64,000 nt of DNA, from the NCBI RefSeq assembly GCF_003054175.1, contig NZ_QBKN01000024.1, positions 1 through 64,000 on the forward strand, read 5' to 3'. Both the position numbers and the translations under genes were made by a program. The notes under the pieces were generated by a model. That model did not search any database, was not told the origin of the DNA, and saw only the letters and a program-made list of their open reading frames with translations. Shown one piece after another: positions 15,590-24,380 of the stretch. Numbering within the stretch: the first letter of the stretch is position 1; every line of letters starts with the position of its first letter. The stretch is from Allosediminivita pacifica. GTDB taxonomy: Bacteria; Pseudomonadota; Alphaproteobacteria; Rhodobacterales; Rhodobacteraceae.

Positions 15590-16033
15590 TCAGTCGAACT
15601 TGCGCGAGGGGGCCAGCACCTTCGCCTCGCCCGCCAGCACCAGCTTGCCGTCGACTTCGCAGCGGCAGTCCAGCGTGACCCGCCGCTTGGCATGGTCGAT
15701 GCCCGTGACCGTCACCTCCGCGCGTACCGTGTCGCCGGGACGCACGGGGCCGAGGAACTTCAGCGACTGGCCGAGGTAAACGGTGCCGTGCCCGGGAAGC
15801 TGCTCGCCGATCACCGCCGAAATCAGCCCGGCCGTCAGCATGCCGTGGGCGATGCGCCCCTCGAAGATCGTCTCCTGCGCGTAGTCCTCGTCCAGATGGA
15901 CCGGGTTCCGGTCGGTCGAGACCTCCGCGAACATCTCGATGTCGCGATCCGTCACCTGCTTCTGCAGGTAGCGGCTCATCCCCATCTCGATATCCTCGAT
16001 GCAGATCGTGCCACGCGGAAGATTGTCGAACAT
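15590..16033 (-). CDS. MaoC-family (R)-enoyl-CoA hydratase-like protein
   Basis: A 147-aa single hot-dog-fold protein with the hydratase-2 motif (AEVSTDRNPVHLDEDYA, candidate Asp and His about five residues apart) and FEGRIAHGMLTAGLISAVIG. It would hydrate short or medium trans-2-enoyl-CoA, or act on a related acyl-CoA. ATG 16033 has GGAGG five bases upstream; ATG 16045 and 16063 in the same frame are alternatives. No partner gene is adjacent that fixes the pathway. Confidence 0.87.
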   Translation of the reverse strand: MFDNLPRGTICIEDIEMGMSRYLQKQVTDRDIEMFAEVSTDRNPVHLDEDYAQETIFEGRIAHGMLTAGLISAVIGEQLPGHGTVYLGQSLKFLGPVRPGDTVRAEVTVTGIDHAKRRVTLDCRCEVDGKLVLAGEAKVLAPSRKFD

Positions 16034-16159
16034 CTGAGCCTCCATCGGCCTCTCCCGGCCCACGGCGCGTTGGAACGCGTCGGTAACAAATGACCACGCC
16101 TAAGGCGCATTTGGACATTTTATTACTTCGCGCGCGCAGAAAGTGCAAGTCCCAAGGCC

Positions 16160-17032
16160 TCAGCGTAGCGCGCCGATGGAAAATGTCGGCGAAATGCGGG
16201 CCTCTGCCAGGTAGCTCTCCAGCGCCTGCGGGTTCGGCTGGTCGGTGGTCTTCGTCTCCTGCCGGGCCAGCCCGCCGGTGATGAAGAGCGAATCGATATC
16301 CTCGCCGAGTGCGCCCTTGATGTCGGTGGCGATGCCGTCACCCACCGCCAGGATCGGCATCCTGTCGACGCCCGCCACCAGTTCCGACAGGCGCCGGCGG
16401 GCAAGGTCGTAGATCGGCGGATGCGGCTTGCCGAAGTAGAGGCTCACGCCCCCCATCTCGGTATAGAGTTCGGCCACCGCGCCGGCGCACCACTCGCGCG
16501 TCTCGCCCCGGTCCACCACGATGTCGGGGTTGGCACAGAGCAGCTTCAACCCCTTCTTCTGCGCCAGCAGCAGCTCGGGGCGCACCGTCTCGGGCGCCGC
16601 ATGCCGGTCGAAGGGCCCGCAGCAGACGATGCCCTCGGCCTCTTCCAACTCCACCCGCTCGATCAGCACAGGGTCATCCACCGCCTTCAGCGGCTCGAAG
16701 AACCCCATGTCCGTCTCCTCGCCCATGAACCACACACGGCTGCCCACCACGCCCTGGAACATGGCCATGCGCGCCGCGTCGCCCGAGGTCGCAATGCTGT
16801 CCCAGGCATCGGCTGGCACGCCCAGCTTCTCGATCTGCTCCTGCACGCCCGCCCGCGGCCGCGGCGCGTTCGTCACCAGGATCACCAGTCCCCCCGCCTT
16901 GCGGTAGGCCTGCAGCGCCGCCACAGCCGAGGGGATCGCGCGCACCCCGTCGTGCACGCAGCCCCAGAGGTCCACGAACATGGCGTCGTAGTTGGCGGAA
17001 ATGTCCGAAAGCTGCTCGATAATGCGCGTCAT
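16160..17032 (-). CDS. HAD-superfamily hydrolase (NagD/4-nitrophenylphosphatase-like)
   Basis: A 290-aa phosphatase of the HAD IIA subclass. The nucleophile motif is MFVDLWGCVHDG near residue 17, motif II is VILVTNAPRPR, a lysine in YFGKPHPPIY serves as motif III, and LAVGDGIATDIKGA is the acidic motif IV. The substrate is not predictable. Its start lies in the gap that also contains a dispersed repeat, upstream of the pyrophosphatase gene. Confidence 0.88.
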   Translation of the reverse strand: MTRIIEQLSDISANYDAMFVDLWGCVHDGVRAIPSAVAALQAYRKAGGLVILVTNAPRPRAGVQEQIEKLGVPADAWDSIATSGDAARMAMFQGVVGSRVWFMGEETDMGFFEPLKAVDDPVLIERVELEEAEGIVCCGPFDRHAAPETVRPELLLAQKKGLKLLCANPDIVVDRGETREWCAGAVAELYTEMGGVSLYFGKPHPPIYDLARRRLSELVAGVDRMPILAVGDGIATDIKGALGEDIDSLFITGGLARQETKTTDQPNPQALESYLAEARISPTFSIGALR

Positions 17033-17123
17033 GGGGGTCTCCTGTCCTGCACGCCCTCTATGCCGCTGCGCCGCCCCGATGGCCAGACGCGAAAGGGGCG
17101 GTGGCCTGCGCGCACCGCCCCTG

Positions 17124-17180
17124 CTTCTTCTTGGTGGAAATATTCCGGGGGAGGCCCGAAGGGCCGGGGGCAGAGCTCCC
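17124..17180. repeat. Dispersed intergenic repeat, TTCTTCTTGGT family, copy 1
   Basis: A GC-rich element beginning CTTCTTCTTGGTGGAAATA and continuing TTCCGGGGGAGGCC to a GGGGGCAG...CTCCC end. It matches a second copy at 52251-52316. It lies downstream of the pyrophosphatase gene and may act as its transcript end. Confidence 0.6.
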
Positions 17181-17203
17181 ATGCCCGGCCGGCCAGACGC
17201 GCC

Positions 17204-18124
17204 TCAGACCTTGAGGTTCGGGATAATCTGCTTCTTGCGGCTCATCACGCCGGGCAGAACCACGGTGTCGCCCGTGACGGTGGCGCCAAAGCTTTTCTCG
17301 GCCACGCCCTTCACCAGGTCGTTGGGCACCAGCAGCGTCGCCTCTTCCTTCAGGATGTCCACCACGAAAAGCAGCACCTCGTCGACGCCGTCCTCGGCGG
17401 CCACGTCCTTCATCGAGGCCATCAGGCTCTCCTTGCGGCCCAGCGGCATTTCCGGCGCCGTGGTCTCGAGCACCGAAACGCGGAACTTCGTGCCGTCGAC
17501 CTCGTATTCCTTGGAATCCATCCGGATCAGCTCAGCGTCGGAAAAGGCCGAAACGTCCGACTTAGCGGCGAACATCTTGGCCGCGTAATCCGTCAGGTCG
17601 AGGCCCAGTTCCTGCGCCAGCGCCTCGGCAACGGCGCGGTCTTCCTGCGTCGTGGTGGGCGAACGGAACTCCAGCGTATCGGACAGGATGCAGGTCAGCA
17701 TCGCGCCCTTGATCGCCTGAGGCGCCTGCGCCATGTCCTTGCCGATCATCTTGTGCATGATCGTCGCGGTGCAGGCGAGCGGCTCGATGCGGATGTCGAT
17801 CGGACCCTTGGTCTCGAGCCCGCCGACCAGCTTGTGGTGGTCGATGATGCCGCGGATGTCGGCACCGTTCACGTTGGCGGGCAGTTCGGCGGGGTTGTTG
17901 GTGTCCACGATCACCACGGGCGCGCCGTCTTCCACGTCGCCGATGATCTCGGGCTTGTCGAGATTCCAGTGCTCGAGCATGAAGGCGGCCTCGGTGTTGG
18001 GCTCGCCCAGCAGGACGGGCTTGGCGGCCTCGCCCTTGATCTCTGTCATGTACCAGGCCCAGATGATCGGGCTGCCGGTGCTGTCGGTATCGGGCGACTT
18101 GTGGCCGAAGACTTGAGTGGTCAT
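17204..18124 (-). CDS. ppaC: Manganese-dependent inorganic pyrophosphatase
   Basis: A 306-aa family II pyrophosphatase of the DHH/DHHA2 superfamily, which hydrolyses PPi released in biosynthesis. The metal-binding motifs are in order: FGHKSPDTDS at residue 6, VVIVDTNN near 70, GIIDHHKL near 95, and SDTLEFRSPTTT near 148. The C-terminal DHHA2 part contains GRKESLMASMKDV and SRKKQIIPNL. ATG 18124 gives the standard N-terminus MTTQVFGHKSPDTDS. Alphaproteobacteria often have family I enzymes, so a family II enzyme here is noteworthy but not rare in roseobacters. Confidence 0.94.
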   Translation of the reverse strand: MTTQVFGHKSPDTDSTGSPIIWAWYMTEIKGEAAKPVLLGEPNTEAAFMLEHWNLDKPEIIGDVEDGAPVVIVDTNNPAELPANVNGADIRGIIDHHKLVGGLETKGPIDIRIEPLACTATIMHKMIGKDMAQAPQAIKGAMLTCILSDTLEFRSPTTTQEDRAVAEALAQELGLDLTDYAAKMFAAKSDVSAFSDAELIRMDSKEYEVDGTKFRVSVLETTAPEMPLGRKESLMASMKDVAAEDGVDEVLLFVVDILKEEATLLVPNDLVKGVAEKSFGATVTGDTVVLPGVMSRKKQIIPNLKV

Positions 18125-18270
18125 TGGAAATCCTCTTGCGCAGACGGAGAGTTTTGCGGGCCTTCTAGACATAGGATCGACGCTTGTCACCCCGCCATGC
18201 GGCAGTGCGGCGACGCGTGGCCTGTCGCAGCGTCACTCGGAAGTTGCGGGACTCTGGCCTCCGTCGCGCC

Positions 18271-20628
18271 TTACCGCGTTCCGCCTTTCGTCACTCCTGC
18301 CCGCGTGAGCACGCCTTCGATCGCCTCGAGCAGCGCCCGGCGCGGTATCGGCTTGACCAGGCAGGGGTCGTCCGGCCGAACGCCGTCGCTGCCCATGATC
18401 GTGGCGCTGGCATGGCCGGTCAGAAAGATGACCGGCAGGTCGGGCCGCGAAGCGCGCAGGGCCCGCGCCAGGTCGCTGCCCTGCAGCTTGCCGGGCATGA
18501 TCATGTCGGTCAGCAGCAGGTCGATGGGCGGGCCTTGTGAAAACGCCACGGCAGCCTCGTCCCCCGATCGCGCCCGCAGCACGTCGTAACCCGCGGTCTC
18601 AAGCATCCGTCCCAGCGTCGAGAGCACCGCCGCCTCGTCCTCGACCAGCAGCACCCGGCAGCCCCGGAAGGGGGCGGTGCCGTGCGTTCTCGGGACCTCG
18701 GTCTTGCGCGCGGGGGCCTCCGCCTCGACGGGGAAGTAGAGCTCGAAGGTGCTGCCCTCCCCGGGCGCCGAGCGCACCCGGACCCCGCCATCGGACTGCC
18801 GCATGAAGCCGCAGGCCATTGAAAGGCCAAGTCCCGATCCGCTGCCCGCCGGCTTGGTGGTGTAGAAGGGTTCGAAGATGCGCGACACCTCCGTGCCGGC
18901 GATGCCCTCGCCGGTGTCCGTAACGGACACCACCACGTAGTCTCCTGCCTGCATGTCGCCCAGGACCGCGCTTGCATCCCGGCTCGTGACCTGCTGGGCC
19001 GCCACGTCGACCCGAAGCGCGCCGCCCTCGGGCATGGCGTCTCGCGCGTTGATCAGCAGGTTGAGCAGCGCGCTCGCGGCCATGTCGGGATCGGCCCTCA
19101 CGCGCGGCAGCCCGGGCGCGGCGCCGACCTCCATGGTGATGGTTGCCGGAAAGGTCCGACCGGCCCAGGCCGTGGTCTGTTGCACCACCTCGCCAAGGTC
19201 GAAGACCTTCGGTTCCAGCCGCGCCTGCCGGGCAAAGGCCAGCATGCTGCGCGTGAGCCCCGACCCGCGCTCGACCGCCCCGAGCGCCTGTTCGATGCAG
19301 TGCTGCCGGTCGGCCTCGGAAATGGCTTCGCCCATGAGCTCGAGATTGCCCATGATGACGGCGAGCAGGTTGTTGAAATCATGCGCCACGCCGCCCGTCA
19401 GCTTGCCGATGGCCTCGTTCTTCTGCGCCCGCTGCGCGATCGAAGCCATGGTCGCAAGCTCGGTCTCCGCCTCGACCTCGGGCGTGACATCAAGAAAGAC
19501 GCAACTGCCCTCCACGCCGCCCCGGTGGTCCGGGGCCACGCTGCCACGGAGTTCGAACCACCGCGTCGCGCCCTCCGGTGTGCGCATCTGGAAGCGCCCG
19601 TTCAGCGTCGAATCCCGCCCCTGCTGCAGCGCCTCCGTGATCCCGGCCTGCACCGCATTTGCGCTCACCGTGTCGAGGATGCCCGGATCGCGGTAGAGAT
19701 CGGCGGACGAGATGCCCCAGAGCACCTCGCAGCGCGGCGACACGTAGGTGATGCGCAGGCCGCCCTCCACCCCCCGCTCGAAACTCATCATGACCGCCGG
19801 CAGGTTCGCGTTCAGTTGAAGCACGCGGGCCTTTTCCTGGTCCCGCTCGGCCTCGGCCTGTCGTTGCCGGGTCAGGTCCTGCACGACGCCGATCACCCGG
19901 GTGATGCGCCCGTGCCGCCACTCGGCCTCGCCCTTGATAAGCAAGTGTTTCCGGCGGCCTTCGTCGGTGTCGATCGCCACCTCCGAGGAGAAGGGCTCGC
20001 CGGTTCGGCTGGTCCGCGCCAGGTAATGCAGGATGTCACGCCGGACCTGGTCGCTCGACAGGTAGCACGCCGCGTCGACCAGGCTGGGCGCATTGCCCTC
20101 GGGCAGGTCGAACAGTTCGAAGACCTTGGGCGACCACCGGAAGGTCTCGGTCTCGACGTCGAAGGACCAGGCCCCGATGCCGCCCAACGTCTCGACCTGC
20201 CGCAGCCAGTTGGCCTCGTTCTCGGCTTCCTCGCGGCGACTGGACTGCGCCCGCTCGTAGCGCCGGCGCCGGTCTGCCGGGAAGAGGGCAAGCACCGTCG
20301 TGCCTTCGGTGTCGATCACCCGCCCGCTCAGCAGCACGTCCCAGCGCCCGATGTGGGGCCGCTCGATCTGGAAGGCGGTTTCTTCCAGCTCGCCCCCCAT
20401 CCGGAGCCGCGGCAGCAGGTGCATCTCGTAGAAGACGCGCGCACCGGCCGGCAACAGATCGCTGAAGCTCTGAAGGCCGATCACCTCGGATTCCGACTGG
20501 CCGATCCAGTGCAGGAAACGCGGGTTGGCCGCCTCGATCACCCCATCGGCACCGGTCCGGACCAGCCCGCAGGGCGCCGCCGCGGCAAGGTCGAACGGGT
20601 CGCCTTGGCCTGCGTCGTCCTGGGCCAT
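18271..20628 (-). CDS. PAS-domain hybrid sensor histidine kinase
   Basis: A 785-aa soluble hybrid kinase with no membrane segment. Three PAS-like regions lie at roughly 10-125, 145-260 and 275-385. The HisKA dimerisation helix follows with the phospho-acceptor in TGGVAHDFNNLLAVIMGN, then an HATPase domain (LLNLLINARDAMPEGG; DTGEGI; GSGLGLSMACGF). A C-terminal receiver starts near 657 (VLLVEDEAAVL) with phospho-Asp in LLLTDMIMPG near 707. Its ATG lies one base after the stop of an RsbQ-like hydrolase gene, so the hydrolase may deliver a signal to a PAS domain. Confidence 0.92.
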   Translation of the reverse strand: MAQDDAGQGDPFDLAAAAPCGLVRTGADGVIEAANPRFLHWIGQSESEVIGLQSFSDLLPAGARVFYEMHLLPRLRMGGELEETAFQIERPHIGRWDVLLSGRVIDTEGTTVLALFPADRRRRYERAQSSRREEAENEANWLRQVETLGGIGAWSFDVETETFRWSPKVFELFDLPEGNAPSLVDAACYLSSDQVRRDILHYLARTSRTGEPFSSEVAIDTDEGRRKHLLIKGEAEWRHGRITRVIGVVQDLTRQRQAEAERDQEKARVLQLNANLPAVMMSFERGVEGGLRITYVSPRCEVLWGISSADLYRDPGILDTVSANAVQAGITEALQQGRDSTLNGRFQMRTPEGATRWFELRGSVAPDHRGGVEGSCVFLDVTPEVEAETELATMASIAQRAQKNEAIGKLTGGVAHDFNNLLAVIMGNLELMGEAISEADRQHCIEQALGAVERGSGLTRSMLAFARQARLEPKVFDLGEVVQQTTAWAGRTFPATITMEVGAAPGLPRVRADPDMAASALLNLLINARDAMPEGGALRVDVAAQQVTSRDASAVLGDMQAGDYVVVSVTDTGEGIAGTEVSRIFEPFYTTKPAGSGSGLGLSMACGFMRQSDGGVRVRSAPGEGSTFELYFPVEAEAPARKTEVPRTHGTAPFRGCRVLLVEDEAAVLSTLGRMLETAGYDVLRARSGDEAAVAFSQGPPIDLLLTDMIMPGKLQGSDLARALRASRPDLPVIFLTGHASATIMGSDGVRPDDPCLVKPIPRRALLEAIEGVLTRAGVTKGGTR

Positions 20629-20629
20629 C

Positions 20630-21448
20630 TCAGGTGCCTGCGGCCGGGGCGACGTCGGTCAGCGCACGGCGCACCGTTTCCGCCGTCTCTTCGGGGTGGG
20701 TGATGTGCGGGCAGTGTCCCGTCGCCTCGAGCCGCACCAGCCGGCTCCCGGGGATCGTCTCGTGCACGAAGGCGATGGCCGGCTCGGGCGCCACCGGGTC
20801 TTCCTGGCACTGCAGGATCGTCACCGGCACGCCGACCTTCGGCATATCCTCCCGGCAATCCGAAAAGAACGTCACACGCGCAAAAGGCGTCGCGAATTGC
20901 GGATCGGCGCGGCACAGGGTTTCGACGAAATCGTCGGTGAATTTCGGCCGGTCTGGATTCCCGATGACGATGGGCGCGAAAACCCGGGCCCAGTCCACGA
21001 AATTCGCCTCGAGCAGGTCGATCAATTGATCGAGCATTTCCCGCTCGAAGCCGCCGCGATACCCATCGTCGTTCAGGTAGCAGGCCGAGGGGCCGATCAT
21101 GACGATCGATGCGAACAGATCAGGCCGCCGGATCGCGGCCAGCGCCGCGATCATCGTGCTCACCGAGTGCGCCACGAGATGAACCTGGCTCAGGCCCATG
21201 GAGTCGAGCAGCGCGATCAGATCCAGCGCATAGCCGTCGAGCGTGCTGTGCCGCTGCCTGTCGTAAAGCTCCGGGTCCGCGCGCCCCAGCCCCGCAAGGT
21301 CGAAAAGGAGCACCCGATGATCGCCTTCAAAAGCGGGTGCCACGTCCTTCCAGACCAGCTGATCGCAGCCAAAGCCGTGCGCGAAGACGACGACCGAATT
21401 TCCCTCGCCCCGGATCCTGACATTGTGGCGCTCTGCAAGCGTAGCCAT
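20630..21448 (-). CDS. Alpha/beta hydrolase, RsbQ-like
   Basis: A 272-aa hydrolase of the RsbQ / strigolactone-receptor-like family. The oxyanion region is FAHGFGCDQLVW, the nucleophile is Ser95 in VAHSVSTM, an acid is seen in LQCQEDPVAP, and the histidine is in TGHCPHITHPEE. In Bacillus subtilis RsbQ is required for a PAS-domain regulator, RsbP, to sense energy stress. Here the next gene, one base away, is a PAS hybrid kinase. ATG 21448 has AAGGA just upstream; a GTG at 21460 is also possible. Confidence 0.88.
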   Translation of the reverse strand: MATLAERHNVRIRGEGNSVVVFAHGFGCDQLVWKDVAPAFEGDHRVLLFDLAGLGRADPELYDRQRHSTLDGYALDLIALLDSMGLSQVHLVAHSVSTMIAALAAIRRPDLFASIVMIGPSACYLNDDGYRGGFEREMLDQLIDLLEANFVDWARVFAPIVIGNPDRPKFTDDFVETLCRADPQFATPFARVTFFSDCREDMPKVGVPVTILQCQEDPVAPEPAIAFVHETIPGSRLVRLEATGHCPHITHPEETAETVRRALTDVAPAAGT

Positions 21449-21647
21449 CGCATCCTTCACCGTCCGTGCTGTCGTGCAATTTGCTTAGCACATAAGCAGT
21501 CCGATGTCTTGGATGCGATATTGCGGATTGCCGAAAACCGGCAAGTCACTGGGACTCCCGGATTTCCACCGGATGCCCCCGCCATTTCCCGGTCGGATCA
21601 CTGCGCATTCCGCCCACCGTGGAATTGCCCGAAACACGCGGCGCCGT

Positions 21648-22643
21648 TCAGACCTCGACCTGTGCGATCATCCGCTCCAGCCGTTCCATGGCGCGCACGC
21701 CGTCTTCGATACCGGGCACCTCGCGGCGCTCGCCGCGCAGCACCGCGGCCACGTCGGCCAAAAGCGCGGCATAGCCCTTGTGATCCTCGTTCGCCGCGGC
21801 AGTGAAGTTAGGCCGCCAGGAAAGCGTGTCACAGTCCGGATCGAGCCGCGCGCCGGGATCATCCGCCTTGAACGGCGGATCGCGGTAGAGCGCCACGTCG
21901 ATGATGTTGTCCACGTGCAGCCGGGCGTGATCGCCCATGATCCGGATTTCCTCCATCGGCGTGCCGCGCGACTGCACGGTGCCCATGACCACGTTGCCGA
22001 TCACGCCGCCTTCGGTGGTGAAGTTGACGTGCAGCAGAAGCTTGCCCGGCGTTGGCGAGGCGCTGCGCACCTGCATCTCGCCGAAATCCTCGCCCGCGAA
22101 CCAGGGGATCAGGTCCATGTAGTGCACGCAGTGGTGCAGGTAGAAGCCGGTGTAGTCCGGCTCGCCCTCGAAGTAGCCGGGGGCGGTCATGTAGGCGCCG
22201 GTGATGCCCAGAACCTCGCCGAAGTCGCCGTCGCGCAGGGTATTCATGGCGATGCGGTTGCCGGTGGAATAGCGCTTCATGAAGCCCACCATGACCGGCT
22301 TGCCGGCGCGCCGCGCGGCTTGGGCCACCTCGCGGGCCCCCGCGGCATCGGCGGCTGGGGGTTTTTCCATGAAGACGGGCAGCCCGGCCTCGAGCGCCGC
22401 GATGGCGGCCGCGCGGTGCAAATCGGGCCCCACGGCCATGCCCACCGCGTCGATGCCGCCCGCCGCGATCATCTCGCGGAAATCGTCGTAGCAGGCGGTC
22501 ACGCCGTATTCCTCGGCGGTGCGCGACAGCGCCGCCCCGTCACGGTCGCAGAGCGCCGCCACGCGGATGTCGTTGCGCCCGAGCTGGGGCAGCAGCATCT
22601 GGCGCGCGTGCCGGCCGCAGCCGATCCATCCCATCCGGATCAT
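21648..22643 (-). CDS. Gfo/Idh/MocA-family oxidoreductase
   Basis: A 331-aa NAD(P)-dependent sugar or polyol dehydrogenase. The Rossmann motif [13 protein letters not shown] is at the N-terminus, the conserved EKP near residue 94 ([15 protein letters not shown]), and a HH pair in the catalytic domain ([14 protein letters not shown]). It overlaps the upstream isomerase gene by 4 bases and is the last gene of the minus-strand sugar operon. It would oxidise the imported sugar or an isomerised intermediate. Confidence 0.9.
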
Positions 22644-23527
22644 TGGTCTACCTCCGCCAGTGCGAGCGCGTTGCGCACGAGCCCGAGTCCTGCACGCAGC
22701 TTGGCGCTCTCGTCCTCGTGCGGCGGGCGCCAGTGCGCGATGGGCAGGGCCACGCGGTCGTCGTCGCGGCGGAACGGCTCAAGCGAGATCGGACCGGCGT
22801 AGCCCGCGCGGGCCAGCGCCCGCATCACGGCGGGCCAGTCCACGTGCCCGGTGCCGGGATGGCCGCGGTGGTTCTCGTTGGCCTGGAAGTGCGCGATGCG
22901 CGGGCCCGCCATGCGGATCGCGTCGGGGATCGAGCGCTCTTCCATGTTCATGTGGAACGTGTCGAGCATCAGCTTGAACGCCGGGTTGTCGACTGCGTCC
23001 ACGACCTCGCAGGCCTGCCGGGTGGTGGACAGGATGTCGGTCTCGAAACGGTTCAGGGCCTCGACCGCCAGGGTGATGCCCGCGGCCTCGGCATGGGGTG
23101 CGACGGCGCGAAACCCTTCGACGGTGCGTTCGGCCCGCGCCGCGATGTCGTCGTCGGTACGTGGCAGGGGCGGGCGTCCGGCAAAGACCATGGGCTCGCC
23201 GTAAAGCGGCCCGCCCACCACGCTCGCGCCCATCTCGGAGGCCACGTCCACGCAACGGCGCAGGTAGTCGAGCCCGCCCTGCCGCGCGCTCTCGTCCTCC
23301 GAGGCGATGGACCGCTGCGGGTTCACCCGCGCGGCCAGCACGGTGAAGATGCCCGCATCCTCGGCCGCGCGGCGCACGTCGGCGGGGCTCAGGTCGTCGT
23401 CGGGTTCGGGCACCAGCAGCTCCACGAAGTCGAAGCCGAGATCGCGCGCCTTGGCGAAGTAGGGCAGGTCGGCGCGGGTGAAGGGCCGCGCGAACTGCAT
23501 GGAAATGATGCCGATGGGATTCTGCAC
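22640..23527 (-). CDS. TIM-barrel sugar isomerase/epimerase
   Basis: A 295-aa protein of the xylose-isomerase-like (AP endonuclease 2) barrel family, closest in pattern to D-psicose/D-tagatose 3-epimerases. The candidate metal ligands are Glu in [12 protein letters not shown], Asp in LMLDTFHMN, His in [11 protein letters not shown] and Glu in [11 protein letters not shown]. It is coupled to the dehydrogenase gene (ATGA overlap) and lies 19 bases after the permease stop. The substrate is unknown. Confidence 0.87.
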
Positions 23528-23546
23528 GATGGGTCCTCTTGTTGGT

Positions 23547-24380
23547 TCAGCCCTTGACCGCGCCCTGGGTCAGGCCGGAGATCAGGCGTTTCTGCACGAG
23601 AAGGAAAAGCACGGTGGCCGGCAGGGCGCCGACGATGCCGCCGGCGGTCAGCAGCCCCCACTGCACCTCGTATTCCCCGATGAGCGTCTGCACGGCGACG
23701 GTGATCGGGCGCACCTCGCGGCCGCCCAGGGTCAGGGCGTAAAGGTACTCGTTCCACGAGGTGATGAAGATGTAGATGCCGGTGGCGATGATGCCGGGCA
23801 GGCAGAGCGGCAGGACCACCCGCCGCAGCGCCTGCAGCCGCGTGCATCCGTCCGTCATCGCCGCCTCGTCGAGCGAGCGCGGGATGCCGTTGATGTAGCT
23901 GACCATCATCCAGATCGAGAAGGGGATGGCGATGGTCGAGTTCGCCGCGATCAGCGCGATATGAGTGTCCAGCAGCCCCAGCACCCGCATCAGCACGAAA
24001 AGCGGCAGGATCAGCAGCACCAGCGGGAACATGTTGATCAGCAGGAACTGCAGCATCAGGATCCGCTTGCCCCGGAATTCGAAGCGCGAGAAGGAGTAGG
24101 CCGCCGTCACGCTCAGCGAAAGGCCGACAATGACGGTCCCGCCCGCCACGATGAAGCTGTCGAGCAGGTTGTCCGCAAAGCCCACGGTCCGGAACAGTCG
24201 CGCATAGTTCTCGAGCGTCGCGTTCAGCAGCGAGGGACCCTCGGTGAAAAGCGTCGACTCGTCGCTGACCGAGGTGATGAACATCCACAGGTACGGACCC
24301 AGCGTGAAGGCGAGGATCGCCAGCATCGGCAGGTCCACCGTCAGGATGCGCCGCATCGTCGAAGGTTTGTGAAGCGCCAT
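23547..24380 (-). CDS. Sugar ABC transporter permease (MalG/UgpE-like)
   Basis: A 277-aa permease with six hydrophobic segments, the EAA coupling loop [22 protein letters not shown] and the typical CUT1 end [15 protein letters not shown] 24380 overlaps the stop of the upstream permease by one base (TGATG), so the two permeases are translationally coupled. Its partner ATPase is encoded divergently at 28.4 kb. Confidence 0.92.

Follow-up and report, generated by a model that had tools for sequence, protein, structure and literature searches.

The 64,000-nucleotide (nt) stretch of Allosediminivita pacifica DNA analysed here (contig NZ_QBKN01000024.1, positions 1 to 64,000; hereafter the window) carries on its minus strand a gene for an RsbQ-type alpha/beta hydrolase, which is followed by the gene of a hybrid histidine kinase. 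We consider it highly probable (roughly 0.85) that the two genes form a two-gene RsbQ-PAS sensing module driving the hybrid kinase. The hydrolase gene (20630-21448) extends from the ATG at 21448 to the TGA at 20632-20630 and encodes 272 amino acids. The sequence AAGGA stands 5′ of the ATG, and an alternative GTG start is possible 12 nt upstream (21460). The kinase gene (18271-20628) starts with the ATG at 20628, its frame ends, stop codon included, at 18271, and the product has 785 amino acids. As the first-pass annotation of this DNA had stated, the two genes are one base apart: base 20629 alone separates the hydrolase stop from the kinase start (coding-strand junction ACCTGAGATGGCC).

Arrangements of this type have been described before. 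Nadezhdin, Brody and Price (2011, PMC3183031; this and the other papers cited by PMC number are used in the parts accessible to us) defined an "RsbQ-PAS bipartite sensing module" from 45 cases in which RsbQ and RsbP-PAS are neighbours, the outputs being phosphatases, histidine kinases (hybrids included) or diguanylate cyclases. RsbQ-kinase coupling is also cited in PMC12143880, where an AlphaFold model sets RsbQ between the PAS domains and the linkers of RsbP. Because PMC3183031 already describes RsbQ-PAS neighbours with hybrid kinases, the window pair is a further member of this module, and kinase coupling is already in print. The coupling of an RsbQ-like hydrolase to a PAS hybrid kinase, proposed by the first-pass annotation, is well supported by the type of the hydrolase, the type of the first PAS domain, the hybrid-kinase output and the conserved pairing, whereas the pairing itself is not new.

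The hydrolase is, judging by sequence and predicted structure, specifically RsbQ-like, and its triad appears intact. The best matching PDB chain was Bacillus subtilis RsbQ (1wom, E 2.1e-85), followed by a plant KAI2-like protein (E 3.6e-61) and, slightly lower, by the bacterial protein Olei00960. The predicted model (mean predicted local distance difference test score, pLDDT, 93.8) superimposed on 1wom with a template modelling (TM) score of 0.94 and a root-mean-square deviation of 1.2, the structural alignment giving 47% identity. The columns of the putative triad, S95 (21164-21166), D217 (20798-20800) and H245 (20714-20716), were identical in all 60 sequences of an alignment that comprised the 58 loci described below, RsbQ 1wom and a moss KAI2-like protein. 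Both the RsbQ-like assignment and the choice of Ser95 for mutation, made at first pass, agree with these results, Ser95 being the expected nucleophile. The genome has 29 Abhydrolase_6 and 13 PAS_9 matches; by coordinates, the window hydrolase is the only one that adjoins a PAS_9 match.

The most N-terminal PAS domain of the kinase, PAS1 (approximately residues 11-120; 20269-20598, minus strand), overlaps a PAS_4 match at residues 18-65. A profile derived from 42 partner proteins that belong to other hydrolases, without the window and its two nearest relatives, gave 95 bits (E 1.6e-30) with PAS1 and about 0 bits with the middle and third PAS segments; by this measure, only PAS1 among the three is assigned to the RsbP type. 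When an RsbP-type profile that included the window sequence was run over the genome, the window gene scored 9.3e-39 and the next-best place 7.3e-4. The published RsbP-PAS signature of nine positions represents a 75% consensus, not an all-or-none rule, and PAS1 fits eight of the nine by residue class (C20, V23, L59, R64, F66, Y67, H70 and E83). The positions essential in RsbP, L48, F55, Y59 and E72 in B. subtilis numbering, match L59, F66, H70 (H/Y class) and E83. The numbering was transferred through the PAS domain of a Lysinibacillus locus (L004), taken as gap-free relative to RsbP and used in place of the RsbP sequence itself. PAS1 also has P73, and its tail (FPADRRRRYE) lacks a DIT motif; DLT and DVT stand only after the second and the third PAS, respectively. 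In the AlphaFold model of PAS1 (mean pLDDT 82.6) the elements follow each other in a PAS-like order, and a long helix (61-78) bears F66 and H70.

Conservation of the pairing was assessed with 58 hydrolase loci: the window, 13 from a first search, and 15 (own genome excluded), 9 new and 20 new ones from three genome surveys. In the surveys the threshold was E <= 1e-40 and no more than six first-look candidates per genome were scored, so second hydrolase copies may have been missed. An RsbP-type PAS lies directly after the hydrolase, on the same strand, in 47 of the 58 loci, as scored with a profile whose training set comprised 45 of these 47 (all but L010 and L097). In 46 of the 47 the module consists of two genes, and the PAS match starts between -26 and +40 nt from the hydrolase stop. 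The paired loci span Pseudomonadota, Bacillota and Bacteroidota. The 42-partner profile also found an RsbP-type PAS in loci it had not seen: all six additional loci taken from the genus to which the fusion genome described below belongs, and all four named plasmid loci that were opened. Looking for the same pairing in other genomes had been proposed at first pass, with a lack of conservation named as evidence against a link; the pairing turned out to be conserved. The hydrolase itself is sparse: of the genomes surveyed, 16 of 394 have it in the window's family, 11 of 385 at class level and 20 of 398 at phylum level, each count including the window's own genome.

The 47th paired locus (L097, 6178-7926, minus strand, in a one-contig genome) is a fusion: a hydrolase of the RsbQ type, a PAS of the RsbP type and a GGDEF domain share one continuous frame of 582 amino acids. 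A two-gene pair (L098) is present in that genome as well, separate from the fusion. None of the six further loci of the genus has the fusion, which may have arisen in one species only or be a sequence error. Among 72,556 plasmid records, 74 encode RsbQ-like hydrolases (E <= 1e-30); 24 of these records are typed as conjugative, and the carriers include Phaeobacter, Streptomyces and rhizobia. The four plasmid loci mentioned above come from these 74 records, and each has the pair. Named relatives sit on plasmids of Phaeobacter inhibens, Paracoccus marcusii and Bosea, and the kinase of the P. inhibens plasmid pair has 364 amino acids. Horizontal travel of the RsbQ-PAS module is plausible.

The outputs of the 47 paired loci differ. 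Nine are HisKA hybrids with a receiver, eight are HWE kinases, one is a HisKA_2 protein and 16 are HisKA kinases lacking a receiver (two of these, L035 and L075, may be incomplete). Another two show HATPase but no HisKA match in Pfam. GGDEF proteins account for seven (the fusion counted) and GGDEF-EAL proteins for three, and one is cut by a contig end. All eight HWE kinases come from the window's family (L031, L032, L036, L038 and L041-L044); HWE kinases in alphaproteobacteria often feed the PhyR general stress response. In a Streptomyces plasmid pair the partner is annotated as a SpoIIE-family phosphatase. In the hydrolase tree the window forms one clade with Puniceibacterium and Poseidonocella (support 100/92), all with hybrid kinases. 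The neighbour of this clade (L030; 97/93) has a GGDEF-EAL output, so there the output was swapped and the module kept. Hydrolase distances correlated with PAS1 distances (r 0.83) more than with kinase-core distances (0.56) over 20 kinase loci, the partial correlations being 0.77 and 0.33, respectively. These 20, out of 27 loci classed as HisKA or hybrid, were the ones with a kinase-core alignment of more than 150 residues.

Several observations weigh against a module that drives the hybrid kinase. The equivalent of the signature residue P86 is D97 in PAS1, and the proline is kept in 30 of 45 aligned partners. The outputs are mostly inherited, the nearest hydrolase sharing the output class in 37 of 45 cases. 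The co-divergence comparison comprises only 20 sequences, and shared ancestry was controlled by the kinase core alone. The extra PAS domains keep PAS1 from being directly linked to the kinase core. Neither of the two genes flanking the pair encodes a receiver or a phosphotransfer protein. Finally, 11 of the 58 loci have no RsbP-type PAS nearby (L006, L008, L009, L013, L078-L082, L094 and L102), so the family of the hydrolase is not tied to a PAS partner. These 11 homologues would also suit a hydrolase that is a housekeeping esterase preceding the kinase in one transcript by chance, and the one-base spacing alone suggests only co-transcription. Such an accidental arrangement is, however, strongly disfavoured by the pairing survey: the same PAS type recurs at 47 of 58 loci in three phyla with differing outputs, the Streptomyces pair couples it to a SpoIIE-family phosphatase, and L097 joins hydrolase and PAS in one chain. 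We regard a chance neighbourhood as very improbable, and read the pair as an RsbQ-PAS module with a kinase output.

The hybrid kinase assigned at first pass is borne out by PAS, HisKA, HATPase_c and receiver (REC) matches, in the order PAS1, PAS-like segment, PAS, HisKA, HATPase, REC (all on the minus strand). The middle PAS-like segment (approximately residues 140-255; 19864-20211), which ends in the DLT, is not matched by Pfam in the window protein and was assigned from a PAS_3 match in the corresponding part of the Poseidonocella protein (L002). The third PAS (residues 292-382; 19483-19755) is an ordinary PAS_9/PAS_3 domain ending in the DVT. HisKA (residues 408-468; 19225-19407) contains the H-box GGVAHDFNN with the presumed phosphoacceptor H416; it is followed by HATPase_c (residues 513-635; 18724-19092) and the C-terminal receiver (residues 659-771; 18316-18654), in which the presumed phosphoacceptor D708 and K759 are both present. 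Among PDB chains, 5idj matched the kinase core best (E 2.8e-43). Assignment of the protein as CckA was rejected, the NCBIfam CckA models giving 240.4 and 248.6 bits against a cut-off of 1000.

In the mechanism that we propose, the hydrolase would bind PAS1 of the dimeric kinase mainly through the F-alpha helix (F66, H70), and a small molecule entering, or turned over in, the Ser-Asp-His pocket would alter the contact. The altered contact would reset a helical relay running from PAS1 through the two following PAS domains to HisKA, and H416 would then hand its phosphate to D708 in the attached receiver, from where it would reach a partner, probably a phosphotransfer protein or a stand-alone receiver. 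The direct hydrolase-PAS contact and the need for the active site are carried over by analogy from B. subtilis RsbQ/RsbP; we infer the cytoplasmic location, the direction of the effect, and the phosphorelay with its target. A stand-alone receiver gene overlaps the 3′ end of the Poseidonocella hybrid kinase (L002:9142-9570, plus strand), and is a candidate phosphorelay partner.

What the pocket does may be read in two ways. The hydrolase may convert a metabolite and hand the product to the PAS1 cavity, in which case PAS1 would be the real sensor and the hydrolase would load it. The idea of ligand generation in the first-pass annotation corresponds to this, and it is one of the two models in PMC3183031. 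It accords with a triad that is complete in all 60 aligned sequences and with the null phenotype of RsbQ triad substitutions in B. subtilis (PMC3183031), but a ligand-hydrolysing receptor of the D14/KAI2 type would keep the triad as well. The top PDB folds for the PAS1 model include FixL, DosP, FG214, PpsR, NifL, LOV domains and the fatty-acid PAS of RpfR, and the model resembles ligand-binding PAS domains (heme, FAD, LOV, fatty acid); these likenesses are fold-level only, among hundreds of PAS chains, and no heme or flavin cofactor is claimed for PAS1. According to the accessible part of PMC3183031, no ligand or cofactor was found with RsbP-PAS. Loading of PAS1 by the hydrolase is in our view a real but tentative possibility.

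Alternatively, the hydrolase is itself the receptor, its surface being reshaped by ligand occupancy or by slow turnover so that the PAS1 contact is altered, as D14/KAI2 do with their plant partners; to this we give about an even chance. After RsbQ, most of the closest solved relatives are plant receptors, although Olei00960, a bacterial protein with no function stated in its PDB match, is also among them. Against this reading, the window hydrolase clusters with proteins of the RsbQ type and not of the KAI2 type. The co-divergence of hydrolase and PAS1, the single chain of the L097 fusion, and the direct RsbQ-PAS contact reported in PMC3183031, where F55A and Y59A were null and impaired in RsbQ binding, are consistent with a receptor. 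Sequence cannot separate the two models. We infer a slight lean to occupancy over loading, given that RsbP has been shown to be contacted directly and that the relatives in plants act as receptors.

Five homologues without the PAS fall beside plant proteins in the hydrolase tree. Two plant KAI2/D14 receptors group with the PAS-less alphaproteobacterial homologues L078-L082 (100/98) and not with RsbQ proper, in a midpoint-drawn tree with two plant sequences, and the window hydrolase lies outside this group with the RsbQ-type proteins. If the grouping holds in wider sampling, the plant lineage would have come from a PAS-free branch. Transfer of bacterial RsbQ to plants was proposed by Wang et al. 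2022, as cited in PMC10504578, and that study may already show the branching. Two of the five instead precede a PAS_7 kinase (L079) and a PAS_7 GGDEF protein (L081); that these share another sensory domain was not supported, since their N-termini, which are unassigned, do not match each other.

In the surroundings of the pair, a DHH/DHHA2 protein, which we take to be probably a manganese-dependent inorganic pyrophosphatase, is encoded at 17207-18121 on the same strand, about 150 nt downstream of the kinase. Rfam search of 16000-24000 gave no match. The region 17000-22700 showed no sigma-70-type promoter pattern, and its three terminator-like sites equal the shuffled mean (2.9). Comparison of open reading frame lists by eye revealed no neighbours beyond the pair common to the window and its two nearest relatives; the neighbourhood in Puniceibacterium (L001) has what look to us like queuosine genes. 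An anti-phage reading was dropped, PADLOC giving no match.

On a broader and speculative view, which we hold to be rather unlikely as a whole, the hydrolase would be an enzyme-receptor for a possibly butenolide- or lipid-like metabolite, working in D14/KAI2 style with catalysis as a timer. An exchangeable receptor-plus-PAS cartridge would then gate a CckA-like phosphorelay here, sigma-B in Bacillus and, in other relatives, either cyclic di-GMP enzymes or HWE kinases. If true, one chemical cue is wired to many responses through the cartridge. The ligand is still sought both for the RsbQ-PAS module and for its plant cousin KAI2 (KL; PMC10504578). The hybrid-kinase version offers an in vitro phosphorylation readout usable for metabolite ligand screening, and the survey supplies named plasmid relatives together with a fusion protein that lends itself to structural study. 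A literature search, made mostly without subscription papers, yielded no paper combining RsbQ with HWE, or RsbQ with KAI2 and proteobacteria; the terms HWE, KAI2 and 'single polypeptide' do not occur in the accessible text of PMC3183031, and we assert no priority for the fusion, the HWE outputs or the grouping with plant receptors.

Of the known systems, the CckA hybrid kinase is alike in its kinase core, 5idj being a CckA-type core, whereas the sensory half of the window kinase differs. Plant KAI2/D14, receptors for smoke signals and strigolactones, have the fold and the triad in common with the window hydrolase, at 34-41% identity in the structural alignments listed. B. subtilis RsbQ/RsbP shares the RsbQ-type hydrolase and the type of PAS1, but the C-terminal output of RsbP is a PPM phosphatase of the sigma-B partner switch, whereas the partner in the window is a hybrid kinase; at the time of PMC3183031, the output target was known for B. 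subtilis alone among module members. With the RsbQ-PAS module as described there, the window pair differs at the P86 equivalent (D97) and in having additional PAS domains between PAS1 and the kinase. A coiled coil joins PAS and output in 36 of the 45 proteins of that paper; it records five extra-PAS proteins, and such proteins are among the exceptions. In common with the module, the window has the hydrolase gene immediately upstream, the RsbP-type PAS in the most N-terminal position and without DIT, the four essential positions kept, and a kinase output of a kind that includes hybrids.

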